A DNA stretch of 43,944 nucleotides from a virus. A program made the position numbers and the translations under genes. How positions within the stretch are numbered: position 1 is the stretch's first letter; every line of letters begins with the position of its first letter. The notes beneath the pieces are model-generated. The model was not told where the DNA came from and did no database searches. It saw only the letters and a program-made list of their open reading frames with translations. Below, piece by piece: positions 30,244 to 43,944 of this stretch. The stretch covers positions 1-43,944 of the IMG/VR virus record IMGVR_UViG_3300042923_001760; one strand, written 5' to 3'.

Positions 30244-31074
30244 TCACACGCTCCTTACGATGGACAGCCGCTCGGGCGCGATCGAGATGCGTGAGTAGCC
30301 CTTGCAGTTGGGGCACTTCCGCATCGAGTACGAGAGGACGTTCGCCACGTAGCGGCGTTCGGCGGGTTCGGTCTCGGTACCGCACCGGTGGCACGTGGTG
30401 AGGTTGTTCTGCCCGTCAACGAACAGGGCCGGGTGGTTCTTGATGTGTGGCCGCAACCGGTCGAGAAGCCCCTGCGTCGCGATCACATCTCCCGCGCAGT
30501 ACTCCACCAACCGCTCACGGTCCTCAACCGACTTTTCCGTGACCGCGCGCTCCATGCGGCGGGCGTCGTAGCTGTCGGTCTTGGCGGGGATGCCGAGGAT
30601 CTGACACAACGCGTCGAGGCCCTTGAATGGTGCGCCGCCACCGAACTCGCGGCGCATGACCTTGAGCGTGTCGATGGTCTTGAACGGGGGGAGTGGGGGT
30701 AGTCCGCCTTCGAGGTGGAGGTCGCCCTTGAGCCAGGGGATGTCGGCTCGGTCGACGTTGTGCCCGACGATGATGTCTGCGGATGAGACGAGGGCGTGCA
30801 CCTTCTTGAGGAAGGTCTTGCGGCCTCCCTTGTCCCATTCGGCGAGGCGGATTACGTCAGGTGAGTCGTACCACTTCGCACAGACGATGGTGGTGCGCGG
30901 CTGCCGGGTCACGGACTCCCAGTGGATGTAGCGCTGCTTGAGTGCGCCACGGTCCCACCAGTGCTGCTGTGTGATGCCGTCGAGTCGTTCGACGTCGAGG
31001 ATGAGGACCCGGTTACGCACGCCCGGGACCATCTCGGTTCTGAGTGCTTCGGCGAAACTGCTGGGGTCGGTCAC
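30244..31074 (-). CDS. DEDDy 3'-5' exonuclease with zinc ribbon
   Basis: 276 aa from a GTG overlapping the upstream stop. RNase H-like exonuclease motifs: Exo I LILDVER (Asp27, Glu29), Exo II GHNVDRADIPWL (Asp108/111), Exo III EYCAGDVIAT (Tyr192, Asp196). A C-terminal zinc ribbon follows (CHRC 228-231, CPNC 254-257). It is a stand-alone proofreading-type exonuclease without a polymerase domain. It may act in recombination or DNA turnover with SSB and YqaJ. Confidence 0.85.
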   Translation of the reverse strand: MTDPSSFAEALRTEMVPGVRNRVLILDVERLDGITQQHWWDRGALKQRYIHWESVTRQPRTTIVCAKWYDSPDVIRLAEWDKGGRKTFLKKVHALVSSADIIVGHNVDRADIPWLKGDLHLEGGLPPLPPFKTIDTLKVMRREFGGGAPFKGLDALCQILGIPAKTDSYDARRMERAVTEKSVEDRERLVEYCAGDVIATQGLLDRLRPHIKNHPALFVDGQNNLTTCHRCGTETEPAERRYVANVLSYSMRKCPNCKGYSRISIAPERLSIVRSV

Positions 31075-31292
31075 TGGCGGGCCTCTCGTCGGACGATGCG
31101 GATTCGTTCTCCGCCGATGTCGTGTCCGAGCTTCTTGAGTGCCCGGGAGATTGCCTCGGCGGGGATCGCTTCGTCGGCGATGGCTGTGCGGAGGTCTTCG
31201 GCGTCCTTCTTGGGGAGGGATGCGAGGACTCGGTCGAGCTTCCCGGGTGCTGCCCGGTAGGTTTCCTTGGCGATGAGGTCGGCGAGTGCCAT
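31071..31292 (-). CDS. Early hypothetical protein (73 aa)
   Basis: MALADLIAKETYRAAPGKLD. Helical (RVLASLPKKDAEDLRTAIAD) with a late AISRALKKLGHDIGGERIRI that reads like the end of a winged helix, as in small actinophage DNA-binding proteins. GTGA joint with the exonuclease. Confidence 0.7.
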   Translation of the reverse strand: MALADLIAKETYRAAPGKLDRVLASLPKKDAEDLRTAIADEAIPAEAISRALKKLGHDIGGERIRIVRREARQ

Positions 31293-31295
31293 GGG

Positions 31296-31460
31296 TTAGT
31301 CCTCGTCTCGGGTGACGGTGGTCCAGGTGGTGGGGGAGTAGGCGCGCGCCACGATGGCGGGCCATTCGGTGGTGAAGACGAGTGAGCCGCCGACCACTTC
31401 GAGGTGGTCGGCGGAGATCTCGTCTACTCCGTCGCGCGTGTACACGGTCCAGGTCGGCAT
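31296..31460 (-). CDS. Early hypothetical protein (54 aa)
   Basis: MPTWTVYTRDGVDEISADHL, a compact beta protein ending TTWTTVTRDED. No strong ribosome site; it starts 1 base after the SSB stop and is probably translationally coupled. Confidence 0.65.
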   Translation of the reverse strand: MPTWTVYTRDGVDEISADHLEVVGGSLVFTTEWPAIVARAYSPTTWTTVTRDED

Positions 31461-34241: not shown

Positions 34242-34916
34242 TCAGATCACCATTTCTTCCTCGAGCACTCGCTCGGTCATGGGCAGCCCGTGGACTGCGG
34301 TCTGGTAGGCGGTGACCATCTGTGCGGCGGTGGTCTCGAACTGTCGGACGGCCGCGATGATGGCCTGATGCCACTTGGCATCTGGGTGGACGCGCTTGAC
34401 CCAGAGGGGCATGCCGCCGGAGTACGACACGTAGTCGCACCAGGCGCGCCCGGAGACCAGCAGGCCCGCTTGGATCTGGGCCATGTTCTCCGCCGGCACC
34501 TGGTCGGAGAGGATGGTTTGCAGGTGGCGCTTGGCGCGGCGGGACTTGATCTCGATGAGCCCGTCGTCACCCACGAGGCCGTCCGGGGAGTAGCCGACGC
34601 GCCACCCGTCACCCTCGCGGATCATGAACCCGTACTCGGTGACGGGCGCGTGGTGCTCGGCGTACTTCTCGCGCGCGCGTGGTTCGTCTTCGATGCCTCG
34701 CCACATGTCGTCGGTCATGCGCGACGGTTCCGTGTACCCGGTGATGCGTTCGGCGACGAGGGTTGCGGTGAGGCTGCGGGACGTGTCGTTGGCCGCGGGC
34801 TTGAGCGTGGACGGGGTGACGAGCTGCCCGACCGTGGATGCGGTGACGATGCCGCGGCGTGCGGCGTGCCACTCTTCCGACCCCTGTACGAGGTCACGGA
34901 TGACGATCAGGCTCAT
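34242..34916 (-). CDS. YqaJ-type recombination exonuclease
   Basis: 224 aa. PD-(D/E)xK fold of the YqaJ/lambda exonuclease family: EEWHAARRGIVTAS at the N terminus, WRGIEDEPRAREKY, then the active site GYSPDGLVGDDGLIEIKSRR (Asp, Glu-x-Lys) and ENMAQIQAGLLVSG. It digests one strand of DNA ends to make 3' tails for annealing. Stop and start overlaps place it in the early operon. Confidence 0.92.
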   Translation of the reverse strand: MSLIVIRDLVQGSEEWHAARRGIVTASTVGQLVTPSTLKPAANDTSRSLTATLVAERITGYTEPSRMTDDMWRGIEDEPRAREKYAEHHAPVTEYGFMIREGDGWRVGYSPDGLVGDDGLIEIKSRRAKRHLQTILSDQVPAENMAQIQAGLLVSGRAWCDYVSYSGGMPLWVKRVHPDAKWHQAIIAAVRQFETTAAQMVTAYQTAVHGLPMTERVLEEEMVI

Positions 34917-40168: not shown

Positions 40169-40375
40169 TCACCGCTTCCTACTCCTCGGCGTTCTCCGCA
40201 ACAACGCGGGATCCACCGTGTTCAACTCGATGTAGCGGTCCAAATGCGACTGCGTGTACCGGACCAGGCGCCCCATCCGAATGTGGGGAACGTCGTCTCG
40301 GTGATCCCGGAGCCACGTGGCCGTGACGCCGAGTCGTCGTGCTGCTTCCTGCGTGTCGAATACGGGCTCGGGCAC
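40169..40375 (-). CDS. Excisionase-like winged HTH protein
   Basis: 68 aa from a GTG with GGAGG ahead; an in-frame ATG at 40453 would add 26 Pro-rich residues. FDTQEAARRLGVTATWLRDH, then VPHIRMGRLVRYTQSHLDRYIEL is the MerR/excisionase-type winged helix. As first gene of the early operon in a phage with a tyrosine integrase it is the natural excisionase (directionality factor), but small HTH regulators look the same. Confidence 0.75.
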   Translation of the reverse strand: MPEPVFDTQEAARRLGVTATWLRDHRDDVPHIRMGRLVRYTQSHLDRYIELNTVDPALLRRTPRSRKR

Positions 40376-40462
40376 GTGGCCTCCGTTCGTCGGGGTGGTT
40401 GGGTTCGGCACGGGGAGGGGTTCACCCCGGGTGGAGCCGTCCGGCCTCCCCATGCCTGCAAG

Positions 40463-40537
40463 TCCCTGAGGCGGGATTCGAACCCGCACTGTCCGCCTTT
40501 TGAGGGCGTTGCCTCCTGCCAGTTGGGCTACTCAGGG
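40463..40537 (-). tRNA. tRNA-Leu(CAA)-like
   Basis: 75 nt folding into a cloverleaf: acceptor CCCTGAG/CTCAGGG (7 bp), 3-bp D stem with GG in the loop, anticodon stem with loop CTCAAAA (anticodon CAA), 5-base variable loop ACAGT, T arm GCGGG-TTCGAAT-CCCGC, discriminator A, no encoded CCA. CAA reads leucine UUG, but the short variable loop is not that of normal class II tRNA-Leu. Confidence 0.85.
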
Positions 40538-40627: not shown

Positions 40628-40763
40628 ATCGGGATGCCTCCCCTTCGATCCCCGGGCCGCGTGAAGGGCGGTGCTCCTGTCCTGCCACCGTCATCGCCCG
40701 AGTCAGGCTCTGGTGGGTAAGGGGATCGGCCTATGTGGAGTTGGCCTTGCGCTCCATACGGTA
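40628..40763. other. Gene-free region downstream of the Cro-like gene
   Basis: No convincing gene. An 8-bp inverted repeat (cgatcccc at 40646 and ggggatcg at 40721) could fold the early transcript leader. A frame open on the - strand here lacks any usual start codon. Confidence 0.4.
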
Positions 40764-40775
40764 TGCCATATGGAG
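40764..40775. promoter_or_regulatory. Operator O3 (TGCCATATGGAG)
   Basis: Matches the TGCCA-n2/3-TGGCA sites in the switch region, with CCATATGG as a palindromic core. On the - strand TACCGT follows directly, in the position that the -10 has at operator O1. Confidence 0.5.
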
Positions 40776-40777
40776 TA

Positions 40778-41008
40778 TCAGTGAGCGTGCGTACGAACCT
40801 TCATGAGGTTCGAGACCGGCACCTTCAATGCCGTTGAGATGACGTCCAGCTCGTCCGTCGTCCAAGCAGAGTTACCCTGCAAGCGGCGGCGGAGCGTCCT
40901 GTCCGCGATCCCGGTGGTGTTGATGAGCTCGGCCTGAGTCACGCCGCTCTGCGTGAGTGCCGCCCGCACGTTGCGGGCCACCTCTGCGTTGAGCGTGTTT
41001 TGGGCCAT
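40778..41008 (-). CDS. Cro-like XRE repressor
   Basis: 76 aa, MAQNTLNAEVARNVRAALTQ. XRE helix-turn-helix: SGVTQAELINTTGIADRTLRRRLQG, followed by ELDVISTALKVPVSNLM. It is the first gene of the leftward transcript, opposite the tandem-HTH repressor, as Cro is to CI. The predicted -10 lies only 7 bases before its ATG, so the mRNA would be leaderless. It probably controls both switch promoters. Confidence 0.85.
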   Translation of the reverse strand: MAQNTLNAEVARNVRAALTQSGVTQAELINTTGIADRTLRRRLQGNSAWTTDELDVISTALKVPVSNLMKVRTHAH

Positions 41009-41015
41009 ACAGAGG

Positions 41016-41044
41016 ACCGTATGCCACTTGGCCTACGACGTCAA
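41016..41044 (-). promoter_or_regulatory. Early leftward promoter
   Basis: - strand: -35 TTGACG (41039-41044), 17-base spacer, -10 TACGGT (41016-41021), which fits the actinobacterial TAnnnT pattern. The start codon at 41008 is 8 bases after the -10, predicting a leaderless transcript. Confidence 0.65.
41022..41033. promoter_or_regulatory. Operator O1 (TGCCACTTGGCC)
   Basis: Imperfect TGCCA/TGGCA dyad directly beside the -10 of the early promoter, in its spacer. A half-site CGCCACTT with an AAGTGG inverted partner lies at 41043-41060. Confidence 0.55.
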
Positions 41045-41075
41045 GTGGGGTACGCCACTTTTTCACCCACTCTGC

Positions 41076-41104
41076 TTGCATCACGTATGCCATGTTGGCA
41101 TCGT
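41076..41104 (+). promoter_or_regulatory. Repressor promoter
   Basis: + strand: -35 TTGCAT (41076-41081), 17-base spacer, weak -10 CATCGT (41099-41104). The GTG at 41112 is 8 bases after it, so this transcript would also be leaderless. The -10 match is poor, as in promoters that need activation. Confidence 0.45.
41088..41100. promoter_or_regulatory. Operator O2 (TGCCATGTTGGCA)
   Basis: A 13-base perfect palindrome (TGCCA-TGT-TGGCA) that overlaps the spacer and -10 of the repressor promoter. It mirrors the position of O1 at the opposing promoter. Confidence 0.65.
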
Positions 41105-41111
41105 TACAGGT

Positions 41112-41651
41112 GTGCCCACAGGAAAGCAGGACTCTCCCAGCCCGTTGAGCCACGCCATCGCCGCACGCCTCAGGGCAGCCATGGCAGGCCACACGCCGGT
41201 GATCTACCAGCGCGACATCGAAGCGCAGACCGGGATCGAGCAGTCGACCGTGTCGCGCCTGCTCAAGCCGACAAAGCAGATGACGCTTGAGCAGCTTGAG
41301 GCGATCTGCGGTGTGGTCGGTTTGGACGCGATCGAGGTCATGTCGACGGCGCAGAAGACGGTGAAGGAGCAGGCGAAGGCCAGGGGTCGCACGTGGCGTG
41401 ACGACCTTGCGGACGACATCCGTCGCGCCCTGGACCGGTCGGGCATGAGCCACAACGGCATCGACCACGTGGCGGGAACGACGGTGATCCGGGCGCGCAA
41501 GGGCGACCCGACCGTTGACGAGAGCACACTGACGCTCATCACTCGGGCGCTAGGATTGGACCCCGTACAGGTGTACAAAGACCGGTACGTGGACAAGGGG
41601 GCCGTCGAGCAGACGGCGGCCCCGGGTGCGAGGGAGGCCGACGCGTCGTAG
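41112..41651 (+). CDS. Tandem-HTH immunity repressor
   Basis: 179 aa from a GTG (MPTGKQDSPSPLSHAIAARL). Two XRE-like helix-turn-helix units: residues about 14-70 (VIYQRDIEAQTGIEQSTVSR with MTLEQLEAICGVVGLD) and about 95-155 (DDLADDIRRALDRSGMSHNG with LTLITRALGLDPVQVYKDR). No peptidase or CI-type dimerisation domain is seen. On the opposite strand to the early operon and facing its first gene, it is the likely lysogeny repressor. An upstream extension of the frame crosses the operators and is rejected. Confidence 0.85.
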   Translation: MPTGKQDSPSPLSHAIAARLRAAMAGHTPVIYQRDIEAQTGIEQSTVSRLLKPTKQMTLEQLEAICGVVGLDAIEVMSTAQKTVKEQAKARGRTWRDDLADDIRRALDRSGMSHNGIDHVAGTTVIRARKGDPTVDESTLTLITRALGLDPVQVYKDRYVDKGAVEQTAAPGAREADAS

Positions 41652-41679: not shown

Positions 41680-42408
41680 GTGGTGGCGGTGGAACTCAGA
41701 TTGGTCGGACCCGAAGGGCGAGAGTGGGAGTCCCACGAGCACGCTTTCAGTGACGGCGTGATCGAGGGTGCTGAGCGTGAGGCTGCGCGTTGGCGGGCGA
41801 TGAAGGCCGCTGAGACGCCTCGTGAGCAGGTGACGATTCTGCCGGACCCTCGCCCCCGGACCCCGTATCTACTTGTGGGTCTGGGGGCTCTGATCGGGGG
41901 CCTGGTGACGGCGGTGGGGTTTCTGGCGGCGCCGGAGCCTCAGCAGATGGTGCAGCCGATCGTGGTGCAGCTGGTCCCGTCTGGGGATGCGGTGTCGGTG
42001 CCGGAGTCGTCTTCGTGGCCGTTGACGCCGTCGACTCCGGAGATTGCTGTGACGCCGGCCCCGGAGGACGAGTGGTCCGGTAGTGGCCCGGACGGTGGTG
42101 GCGGGGTTGTGCCCGCTGGTGGGTCGGTAACGGTATCGACGACGACGGGCGCGACCGAGACCGGTTCTGGTGAGGCTGTGCCGGGAGGCGCAGGCGGGCC
42201 CTCGTCGCCCGCGGCGGTGCAGGAGGCGCCCGCGACCCCGTCTACGCCTGCGCCCCAGGTTGACCCGCCGTCGACCCCTGGACCGCCCGCTGAGGTGCCT
42301 ACTGCCCCTGCAACGCCGGACGCCCCCGAGCCTGGCCTTGTGGGTGGCCTGCTCGGGGGCGTCGGGGGTTTGGTGGACGACGTGGTGTGCGTCCTCGTGT
42401 GCGTCTAG
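41680..42408 (+). CDS. Membrane-anchored Pro-rich protein co-transcribed with repressor
   Basis: Up to 242 aa; three GTGs (41680, 41683, 41689) could start it, with AAGG just upstream. A cytoplasmic N-terminal helical part (WESHEHAFSDGVIEGAEREA ... RWRAMKAAE, 1-60) precedes one membrane span (about 64-88, LLVGLGALIGGLVTAVGFLA). About 150 residues of Pro/Ala/Thr/Ser/Gly-rich low-complexity sequence outside follow, then a hydrophobic Gly/Val C terminus (GLLGGVGGLVDDVVCVLVCV) with two Cys. It lies 28 bases after the repressor and so should be made in the lysogen. Surface or superinfection-exclusion function is inferred from context. Confidence 0.75.
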   Translation: MVAVELRLVGPEGREWESHEHAFSDGVIEGAEREAARWRAMKAAETPREQVTILPDPRPRTPYLLVGLGALIGGLVTAVGFLAAPEPQQMVQPIVVQLVPSGDAVSVPESSSWPLTPSTPEIAVTPAPEDEWSGSGPDGGGGVVPAGGSVTVSTTTGATETGSGEAVPGGAGGPSSPAAVQEAPATPSTPAPQVDPPSTPGPPAEVPTAPATPDAPEPGLVGGLLGGVGGLVDDVVCVLVCV

Positions 42409-42810: not shown

Positions 42811-43944
42811 TCAGGCTTCAATCTGGGGCATGGCGTGGGACAGGGCGAGCTCGGCCGCGTAGGCGGTCTTGATCTGCGCCTCGGGGAGCAGGTGCCCGTA
42901 CGTGTCGGATGTGACCTTGATGGACGCGTGCCCGAGCCGGTGTTGGATGGTGGTGAGGTCGGCGTGGGGGAGTAGCCACGCGACGTGACTGTGGCGTAGG
43001 TCGTGGATGCGGGGGCGCTTGGCGATACCGGACGCCTTGACCCACCGCACCCACCGCTGCCACATCTGCTGCTGCGTGATGGGGTGACCATCGTGCGTGA
43101 ACACCCAGTCGTCCGAGGACATGCCCCGTGTGTGGTCGCGGAGGGCATCCACGATCTGCGGGGGCAGGCTGATCGTGCGCCGCCCACGCTCCGACTTAGG
43201 CGCGCCCGTCTGTCGCGGCCCGGAAGACACGAACGACCACGTGCGGGAAATCGTCAGCGTCGGGGGTCGGTCGTCCAGGTGAAGATCCGAGACCTTGAGC
43301 GCGGTCGCCTCCCCAAACCGCATCCCGGTGCCGGCGAGCGTGGTCACGAGGGTCTGCCACTCGGCGGGGACGGCCGTGAGCAACTGTGCGAACTCCCCGG
43401 GGGTGAGGAACGTCTTCTCGCGCCGCTCCGTGCGGGGGATCTTCGCACCGCGGAACGGGTTGCGCGCAATCACTCCGTCTTCGACGGCACGAAGGAACGC
43501 GGACGATAGGAGCTGCTGCCGCATCTGGATCGAGGGACCAGAGAGCCCGGAGTCCTCGAGCCCACGAATGTACGCGGACACGTCTTGCCGCGACACTCCG
43601 TCGATGGGTAGAGCGCCCATGGGGTAGCCGGAGAGTTGGCGGTGGATGCGGTCGTAGACCTGGCGGGTTCCCTTGGTGATGCCGGAGAGGGTGTCGATGT
43701 GTTGGCGGAGGAGGGTGGTGACGGTGATAGTTCCACCGGGTGCCTTCTCGTGCTTCTTCGCGATCTCGCGCGCCGCAGCGCCCCCGAGGCGTTCGACGAG
43801 GCGCTTGTAGTCTGCGGCCTCGCGCGGGGTCTCGAACGCGTCGGAGCACTGCCTGCCGTCGATGCGAAAGAGGACGGTGTAGGAGGTCCAGGGTTCGGAG
43901 TGCCGCCCGTCTGGCTTGCACTCCCGCGTGCGGATGGATGCCAT
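42811..43944 (-). CDS. int: Tyrosine integrase
   Basis: 377 aa. N-terminal arm-type domain (1-70), SAM-like core-binding domain (about 72-165), and catalytic domain with Arg209 (GTGMRFGEA), probable Lys250, His314-x-x-Arg317 (HDLRHSHV), His339 (RLGHASIKVT) and nucleophile Tyr349 (SDTYGHLLP). It integrates phage DNA at attB and, with the excisionase, excises it. It is at the extreme end of the window, so attP, normally beside it, is not seen. Confidence 0.95.
   Translation of the reverse strand: MASIRTRECKPDGRHSEPWTSYTVLFRIDGRQCSDAFETPREAADYKRLVERLGGAAAREIAKKHEKAPGGTITVTTLLRQHIDTLSGITKGTRQVYDRIHRQLSGYPMGALPIDGVSRQDVSAYIRGLEDSGLSGPSIQMRQQLLSSAFLRAVEDGVIARNPFRGAKIPRTERREKTFLTPGEFAQLLTAVPAEWQTLVTTLAGTGMRFGEATALKVSDLHLDDRPPTLTISRTWSFVSSGPRQTGAPKSERGRRTISLPPQIVDALRDHTRGMSSDDWVFTHDGHPITQQQMWQRWVRWVKASGIAKRPRIHDLRHSHVAWLLPHADLTTIQHRLGHASIKVTSDTYGHLLPEAQIKTAYAAELALSHAMPQIEA

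Follow-up and report, generated by a model that had tools for sequence, protein, structure and literature searches.

Opposed and predicted leaderless regulator genes with similar operator-like sites in the lysis-lysogeny control region of a temperate actinophage

The stretch of DNA analyzed here (the window) is an IMG/VR virus record of 43,944 bases with a G+C content of about 65%. Family and profile matches revealed an actinophage-type integrase together with excisionase-like and regulator genes, and the locus discussed below is the lysis-lysogeny control region of a temperate actinophage. Two regulator genes diverge from opposed start codons with 103 bp between them. On the minus strand, a Cro-like HTH protein of 76 aa starts with the ATG at 41008 (40778-41008; phrog_4583, transcriptional repressor, E 3.8e-17), while on the plus strand, a repressor of 179 aa with an N-terminal HTH and a probable degenerate second HTH starts with the GTG at 41112 (41112-41651; HTH_26, E 9.1e-7). 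The Cro-like gene is the first early gene of a leftward operon in which an excisionase-like HTH_17 gene is found downstream (40169-40489, minus strand; HTH_17 E 3.2e-6, phrog_66 E 5.7e-5), and a tyrosine integrase gene lies near the repressor and converges on it (42811-43944, minus strand; Phage_integrase E 2.8e-23). This is the gene order of a divergent repressor/Cro switch, and its intergenic region contains both predicted promoters as well as operator-type dyads. Also inside the leftward early operon is a tRNA-Leu(CAA) of 76 bases (40462-40537, minus strand). Elsewhere in the window, ARAGORN calls a tRNA-Pro (31180-31266, plus strand) that overlaps a predicted minus-strand ORF (30244-31365) and may be spurious. 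Between the repressor and the integrase there is an ORF of 242 aa (41680-42408, plus strand), proline-rich and, by eye, with a likely membrane segment, for which no Pfam or PHROG match was found at E 1.

An earlier note on this DNA had proposed two opposed promoters in a mirrored layout, and this was confirmed. The leftward early promoter, PL (41016-41044, minus strand; score 8.5), consists of the -35 TTGACG at 41044-41039 and the -10 TACGGT at 41021-41016, and the repressor promoter, Prep (41076-41104, plus strand; score 7.0), of the -35 TTGCAT at 41076-41081 and the -10 CATCGT at 41099-41104. Both are sigma-70-like and share an identical geometry, with a 17 bp spacer and a gap of 7 bases between the -10 and the start codon; this spacing had been put at about 8 bases in each direction. 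Each promoter is the top-scoring one on its own strand in a 400-bp scan, and a gap of 7 is the best promoter position on both sides when 0 to 40 bases upstream of the starts are scanned. The score of PL is reached at 2 of the 263,424 scored positions of the window, which ties it for the best; the sole other match scoring 8.5 is TTGCAA-17-TATCTT at 22550-22522 on the minus strand. The score of Prep is reached at 87 of these positions, and both of its hexamers are weak, agreeing with the consensus at 3 of 6 positions. A stricter consensus scan, requiring at least 9 of 12, listed neither PL nor Prep and no promoter in this region. With the in-frame start freely chosen, the fraction of shuffles as good was 0.000 for the Cro-like gene and 0.040 for the repressor.

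The gap preceding the Cro-like gene is CCTCTGT, followed by ATG (41006-41015, minus strand), and that preceding the repressor is TACAGGT, followed by GTG (41105-41114, plus strand). With sigma-70-type spacing, a -10 that ends 7 bases before a start codon is expected to begin transcription there, and we infer starts at or next to the A of the ATG and at or next to the G of the GTG, respectively. No Shine-Dalgarno match precedes either ATG 41008 or GTG 41112. For comparison, such a match is found in 41 of 55 picked ORFs under a loose criterion, which accepts any start in frame within the first 60 codons. The sequence signature of a leaderless gene, a -10 ending 6-8 bases before the start and no Shine-Dalgarno match, is thus found on both sides. 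From the equal geometry, the lack of Shine-Dalgarno matches and the rank of PL, both transcripts are predicted to be leaderless. The same had been proposed for both switch proteins, and with the recurrence of this spacing in other actinophages (described below) the prediction is well supported.

Operator-like dyads, imperfect in both cases, overlie the two promoters. O1 (41019-41036; GTATGCCAC joined to TTGGCCTAC) extends over the spacer of PL and the first half of its -10, and O2 (41085-41103; GTATGCCAT-G-TTGGCATCG) over the spacer and -10 of Prep. O2 is where it had been proposed to be, whereas O1 had been placed beside the -10 of PL and instead covers the spacer and -10 like O2. The motif TGCCA-n-TGGCA attributed to both sites is present in O2 (at 41088), but O1 reads TGCCA-CT-TGGCC, its right arm being TGGCC instead of TGGCA. 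O2 has one extra central base compared with O1, and the dyad centers lie 19.5 (O1) and 18 bases (O2) from the respective start codons. When each is read along its own promoter, the two sites align as CGTAGGCCAAG-TGGCAT and CGTATGCCATGTTGGCAT, and this alignment of PL with Prep beats 23 of 24 cross-locus pairs in the forward direction and 24 of 24 when reversed. A picture of two operators omits the sites at 41043-41060 and 40761-40778. The former, O3 (AAGTGGGGTACGCCACTT; repeat pair I18, 89% complementary), is a palindrome of overlapping half-sites that abuts the upstream edge of the PL -35; it includes the half-site GTACGCCAC at 41050 and does not match the O1/O2 dyad. The latter is an O4-like site (GTATGCCAT joined to ATGGAGTAT) located where the Cro-like gene ends. 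It is overlapped by a strong RNA hairpin at 40752-40775, which directly follows the stop codon of that gene and has a folding energy of -15.6 kcal/mol (z -3.90 in a 41-nt fold and z -0.84 in a 66-nt fold). The hairpin has no T run and could be a terminator or a processing site.

What these sites have most clearly in common is the half-site GTAYGCCAY, which occurs four times in one orientation (40761, 41019, 41050 and 41085). All four copies carry an exact left half; the right halves are degenerate (7, 7 and 6 of 9). Exact matches to GTAYGCCAY number 6 in the window against 0.90 expected, and 0 of 100 shuffles reach 6 with this pattern, which was picked post hoc. Two of the six lie outside the switch, and as the half-sites are not dispersed over the genome, a stoperator-type system as in Cluster A was rejected. 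When the region was tested without a preset pattern, 7 of 200 shuffles equaled the half-site repeat with one mismatch allowed, a borderline result, and 170 of 200 did so with two, which is not significant. The full dyad pattern, left half GTAYGCCAY plus right half RTGGCRTAC, was derived from these very sites, and its three highest-ranking positions across the window fall within this locus: 41019-41036 (16/18), 40761-40778 (16/18) and 41085-41103 (15/18). Because the pattern was built from the sites, this ranking speaks to uniqueness rather than significance. As generic palindromes, O1 pairs at 7 of 8 positions (0.020 of shuffles as good), and O2 alone is not significant (6 of 8; 0.393). Exact TGCCA-(0-6)-TGGCA is found solely at 41088 and 34369, against 0.29 expected in the window. 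The second of these is a perfect TGCCA-CT-TGGCA dyad (34369-34380) inside a predicted ORF (34242-34916).

The two regulators are related in part. Against the Cro-family profile, the N-terminal half of the repressor reaches an hhalign probability of 97.3 (E 1.7e-11), the homology starting at residue 8 after GTG 41112, and the C-terminal half is a weak match (probability 48.1, E 1.8e-4; phrog_4583 E 0.018). A chain with two HTHs in tandem is likely; a single-sequence AlphaFold model (mean pLDDT 49.7) was too poor for use. With the N-terminal half and the Cro-like protein in the same HTH family, it is plausible that both recognize one type of site; by eye, their recognition helices differ. The C-terminus of the repressor was looked at for an ssrA-like tag and is EADAS, not LAA. 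No relatives of the repressor were found in phages at E 0.01 (tblastn), in viral_contigs or in genome_contigs; relaxing the threshold in phages to E 10 brought up only weak HTH matches, and plasmids gave a single one at E 0.8 (the query, P0001, carried one extra residue ahead of the GTG start). This probable tandem-HTH protein, lacking close relatives in the collections searched, is the least ordinary part of the switch. Relatives of the Cro-like protein were found in 29 phage records, the majority from phages of Gordonia, Propionibacterium, Mycobacterium and Arthrobacter, and some are annotated as Cro, repressor or excise. As a single query the Cro-like protein found no relative in viral_contigs, and as an alignment (A2) it found 10 viral loci and nothing in genome_contigs. 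A homologous copy of this switch was not found in the phages, viral_contigs and genome_contigs searched, so a direct footprint by conservation is lacking.

Other actinophages provide a comparison of layout. The closest relative by terminase (G001, 88% identity) has the same gene order as the window, namely integrase, repressor, first early ORF, tRNA-Leu(CAA) and excisionase-like gene, but its repressor and first early ORF differ. Its early promoter reads TTGCGC-17-TATCGT-6-ATG, so the leaderless spacing persists despite a different switch. Among six terminase relatives there was no match to the repressor and one weak Cro-like match, in G001. The tRNA-Leu(CAA) of G001 (locus L018, 7171-7254, plus strand) is 84 bases long compared with 76 in the window, and from these lengths the two appear to be of different types despite sharing an anticodon.

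For a broader survey, the surroundings of Cro-like relatives were taken from named phages, 19 regions in all and some of them near-identical, with hosts including Gordonia, Microbacterium, Propionibacterium and M. abscessus (Guacamole, Hedwig, Min1, B3, prophi89-1 and others). With deposited starts and promoters sought 0-40 bases upstream, the top promoter falls 6-7 bases before the start codon in 17 of 30 genes from 15 loci, the window among them; 200 shuffles gave 1.08 such genes on average and never more than 5. Of 106 other ORFs in 14 of these loci, 3 have a promoter at this gap scoring 7 or more. When in-frame starts were re-chosen in the data and the shuffles alike, 14 of 24 genes in 12 loci passed at 0.02, and both genes passed at 0.05 in 8 loci (the window, Guacamole, TillyBobJoe, Gudmit, BBQValindra, prophi89-1, Min1 and Hedwig). 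The failures were both genes of Bbif-1, the repressor of JustASigh and both genes of B3 (0.09-0.10), and prophiGD43A-3 just missed 0.05 on one side (0.053). This test kept JustASigh and Bbif-1 and omitted one member of every pair of close relatives (PhrostedPhlake, HannahD and prophiGD16-1) as well as Walrus, Hitter, Nandita and G001; Hestia and Pipp entered no test. The two-sided leaderless layout thus seems to be common in such viruses. Side by side with these tests, several deposited starts of Cro-like or repressor genes look wrong (Guacamole, Hedwig, Min1 and TillyBobJoe), with leaderless promoters favoring other in-frame starts; the doubtful positions are L002 2435-2471, L040 1477, L037 1468-1480, and L008 2471 and 2346. 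For the Cro-like gene of Guacamole, the TTG deposited as its start belongs to the predicted -35.

The alignment and dyad tests cover 13 loci. JustASigh and Bbif-1 were dropped from them because a convincing leaderless start for both genes was not obtained in either, so these tests describe loci selected for the leaderless reading. Dyads with 7 or 8 of 8 pairs are found at 8 of the 26 promoters, all centered 18.5-19.5 bases before the start codon, and the other 18 fall below 7 of 8 pairs by the generic palindrome test. In a scan of the dyad axis, the Cro-like promoters peak at -19 (10 of 200 shuffle maxima as high) and the repressor promoters at -20 (0 of 200), in loci that are not independent because some are related. 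Dyads sit at the same distance in other actinophage switches, with different sequences. Likeness between the two promoters of one locus is strong in the window, and at most 2 of 24 forward cross pairs are as good in the window, Guacamole, B3, prophi89-1 and Hedwig; across the 13 loci it is not general. Among prophage sequences resembling prophiGD43A-3 of M. abscessus, 8 were compared (its own record and 7 IMG/VR loci, some rows identical and L021 omitted): the arms of the Cro-side dyad are fixed and its center is variable, as expected of an operator. The surveyed switches resemble that of the window in having a related Cro-like protein, a divergent repressor and promoters mostly 6-7 bases from the start on both sides; they differ in operator sequence, and tblastn found in them no relative of its repressor.

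Taken as a whole, we consider it likely that this is an actinophage switch with opposed leaderless regulator genes and similar operators, O1 and O2, over both promoters. PL would transcribe the Cro-like gene and the early operon (the tRNA-Leu, the excisionase-like gene and beyond), and Prep the repressor. If both RNAs start at the start codon or no more than two bases from it, control must act inside the promoters. The repressor would then bind the similar dyads to turn off PL and, once abundant, its own promoter Prep as well, while the Cro-like protein would shut Prep and perhaps PL. Repression would work by occlusion of RNA polymerase, and the additional half-sites, in O3 and where the Cro-like gene ends, may assist.

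This reading has to be weighed against others. The leftward promoter alone might be real and leaderless, with CATCGT a chance match and the repressor expressed from a promoter further upstream or from another start codon. The frequency with which the window and its shuffles equal Prep allows for this, a candidate 55 bases from the repressor start scores 6.5, and the repressor frame is open upstream to 40953, which makes other starts possible. We nevertheless regard it as unlikely: Prep is the best promoter on its strand in 400 bp and has the gap and spacer of PL, other actinophage repressor genes show the same spacing, and with Cro-family homology beginning at residue 8, a much later start would truncate the domain. 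Another view is that the sites serve one protein: a monomer of the tandem-HTH repressor would bind GTAYGCCAY in asymmetric sites, and the Cro-like protein would bind elsewhere. The exact left and degenerate right halves would fit such binding, as would two HTH-like halves in one chain, and Cluster A repressors, which are two-domain monomers, do bind asymmetric sites (PMC9283540). The weak match of the C-terminal half speaks against it, as does the confinement of the sites, which are not genome-wide like stoperators, and we hold this to be rather unlikely.

Lastly, the repeats might be no operators at all, with TGGCATAC representing -10 context and the copy at 40752-40775 a terminator stem. TGGCAT does lie directly before or overlap both -10s, and that copy folds well as RNA. 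However, this leaves the left arms GTATGCC and the copy at 41050 unexplained, and other actinophage switches carry dyads of different sequence at the same distance; we find it very improbable.

Divergent repressor and Cro-like genes with promoters and an operator between them are described as usual in many mycobacteriophages and little studied (PMC9262239). The switch described here is well formed and belongs to a type with direct precedents in PY54 and BPs. In BPs, the Prep and PR promoters diverge; the operator OR lies between the two hexamers of PR, -10 and -35, and Prep carries a second operator related to it (PMC4557955). To these likenesses can be added one strong and one variable half-site, but the second operator of BPs overlaps the Prep start, whereas O2 of the window covers the spacer and -10 (PMC4557955). 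In addition, attP lies within the BPs repressor gene and the repressor is expressed with the integrase from Prep, while the integrase of the window converges on the repressor (PMC4557955). Integration-dependent immunity of the BPs type was therefore rejected for the window, where the repressor (plus strand) and integrase (minus strand) are convergent and not co-transcribed. In the telomere phage PY54, the cI and cro mRNAs are both leaderless by RACE, starting at each AUG (PMC4488713). This two-sided arrangement is what is predicted for the window, although PY54 has lambda-type proteins and its Cro binds a single site, upstream of cI (PMC4488713).

For Cluster O mycobacteriophages, the available section describes a divergent PL1/PR2 pair with leaderless mRNAs predicted both ways; it is a prediction alone, and that section does not present the pair as a repressor/Cro switch (PMC4351075). 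The repressors of Cluster A are monomers with two domains and asymmetric binding sites, and that of TipsytheTRex resembles the repressor of the window in having two DNA-binding parts per chain (PMC9283540). It differs in its many sites genome-wide and in its second domain, a stoperator domain with an HTH variant rather than an XRE-like HTH, and the available excerpt mentions no Cro-like partner (PMC9283540). In the literature searched, with subscription papers mostly outside it, we found no description of paired leaderless repressor and Cro genes as a general actinophage rule.

That regularity across actinophages is the part worth following. Tentatively, and with some doubt on our side, it may reflect a general design in which regulator genes are divergent and leaderless with a dyad axis about 19-20 bases before the start, so that operator, promoter and start form a rigid module that could be swapped whole; in the window, the tandem-HTH repressor may bind as a single chain. 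If both RNAs are leaderless, the choice between lysis and lysogeny would be set by promoter occupancy, with no 5' leader available for control at the RNA level, and it would depend on how efficiently the host starts translation on leaderless RNAs. Gene starts would also be affected, as promoter position favors a non-annotated start in Guacamole, Walrus, TillyBobJoe, Min1, Hedwig and B3. The spacing of promoter and dyad may further offer a simple route to finding operators in uncharacterized actinophages.
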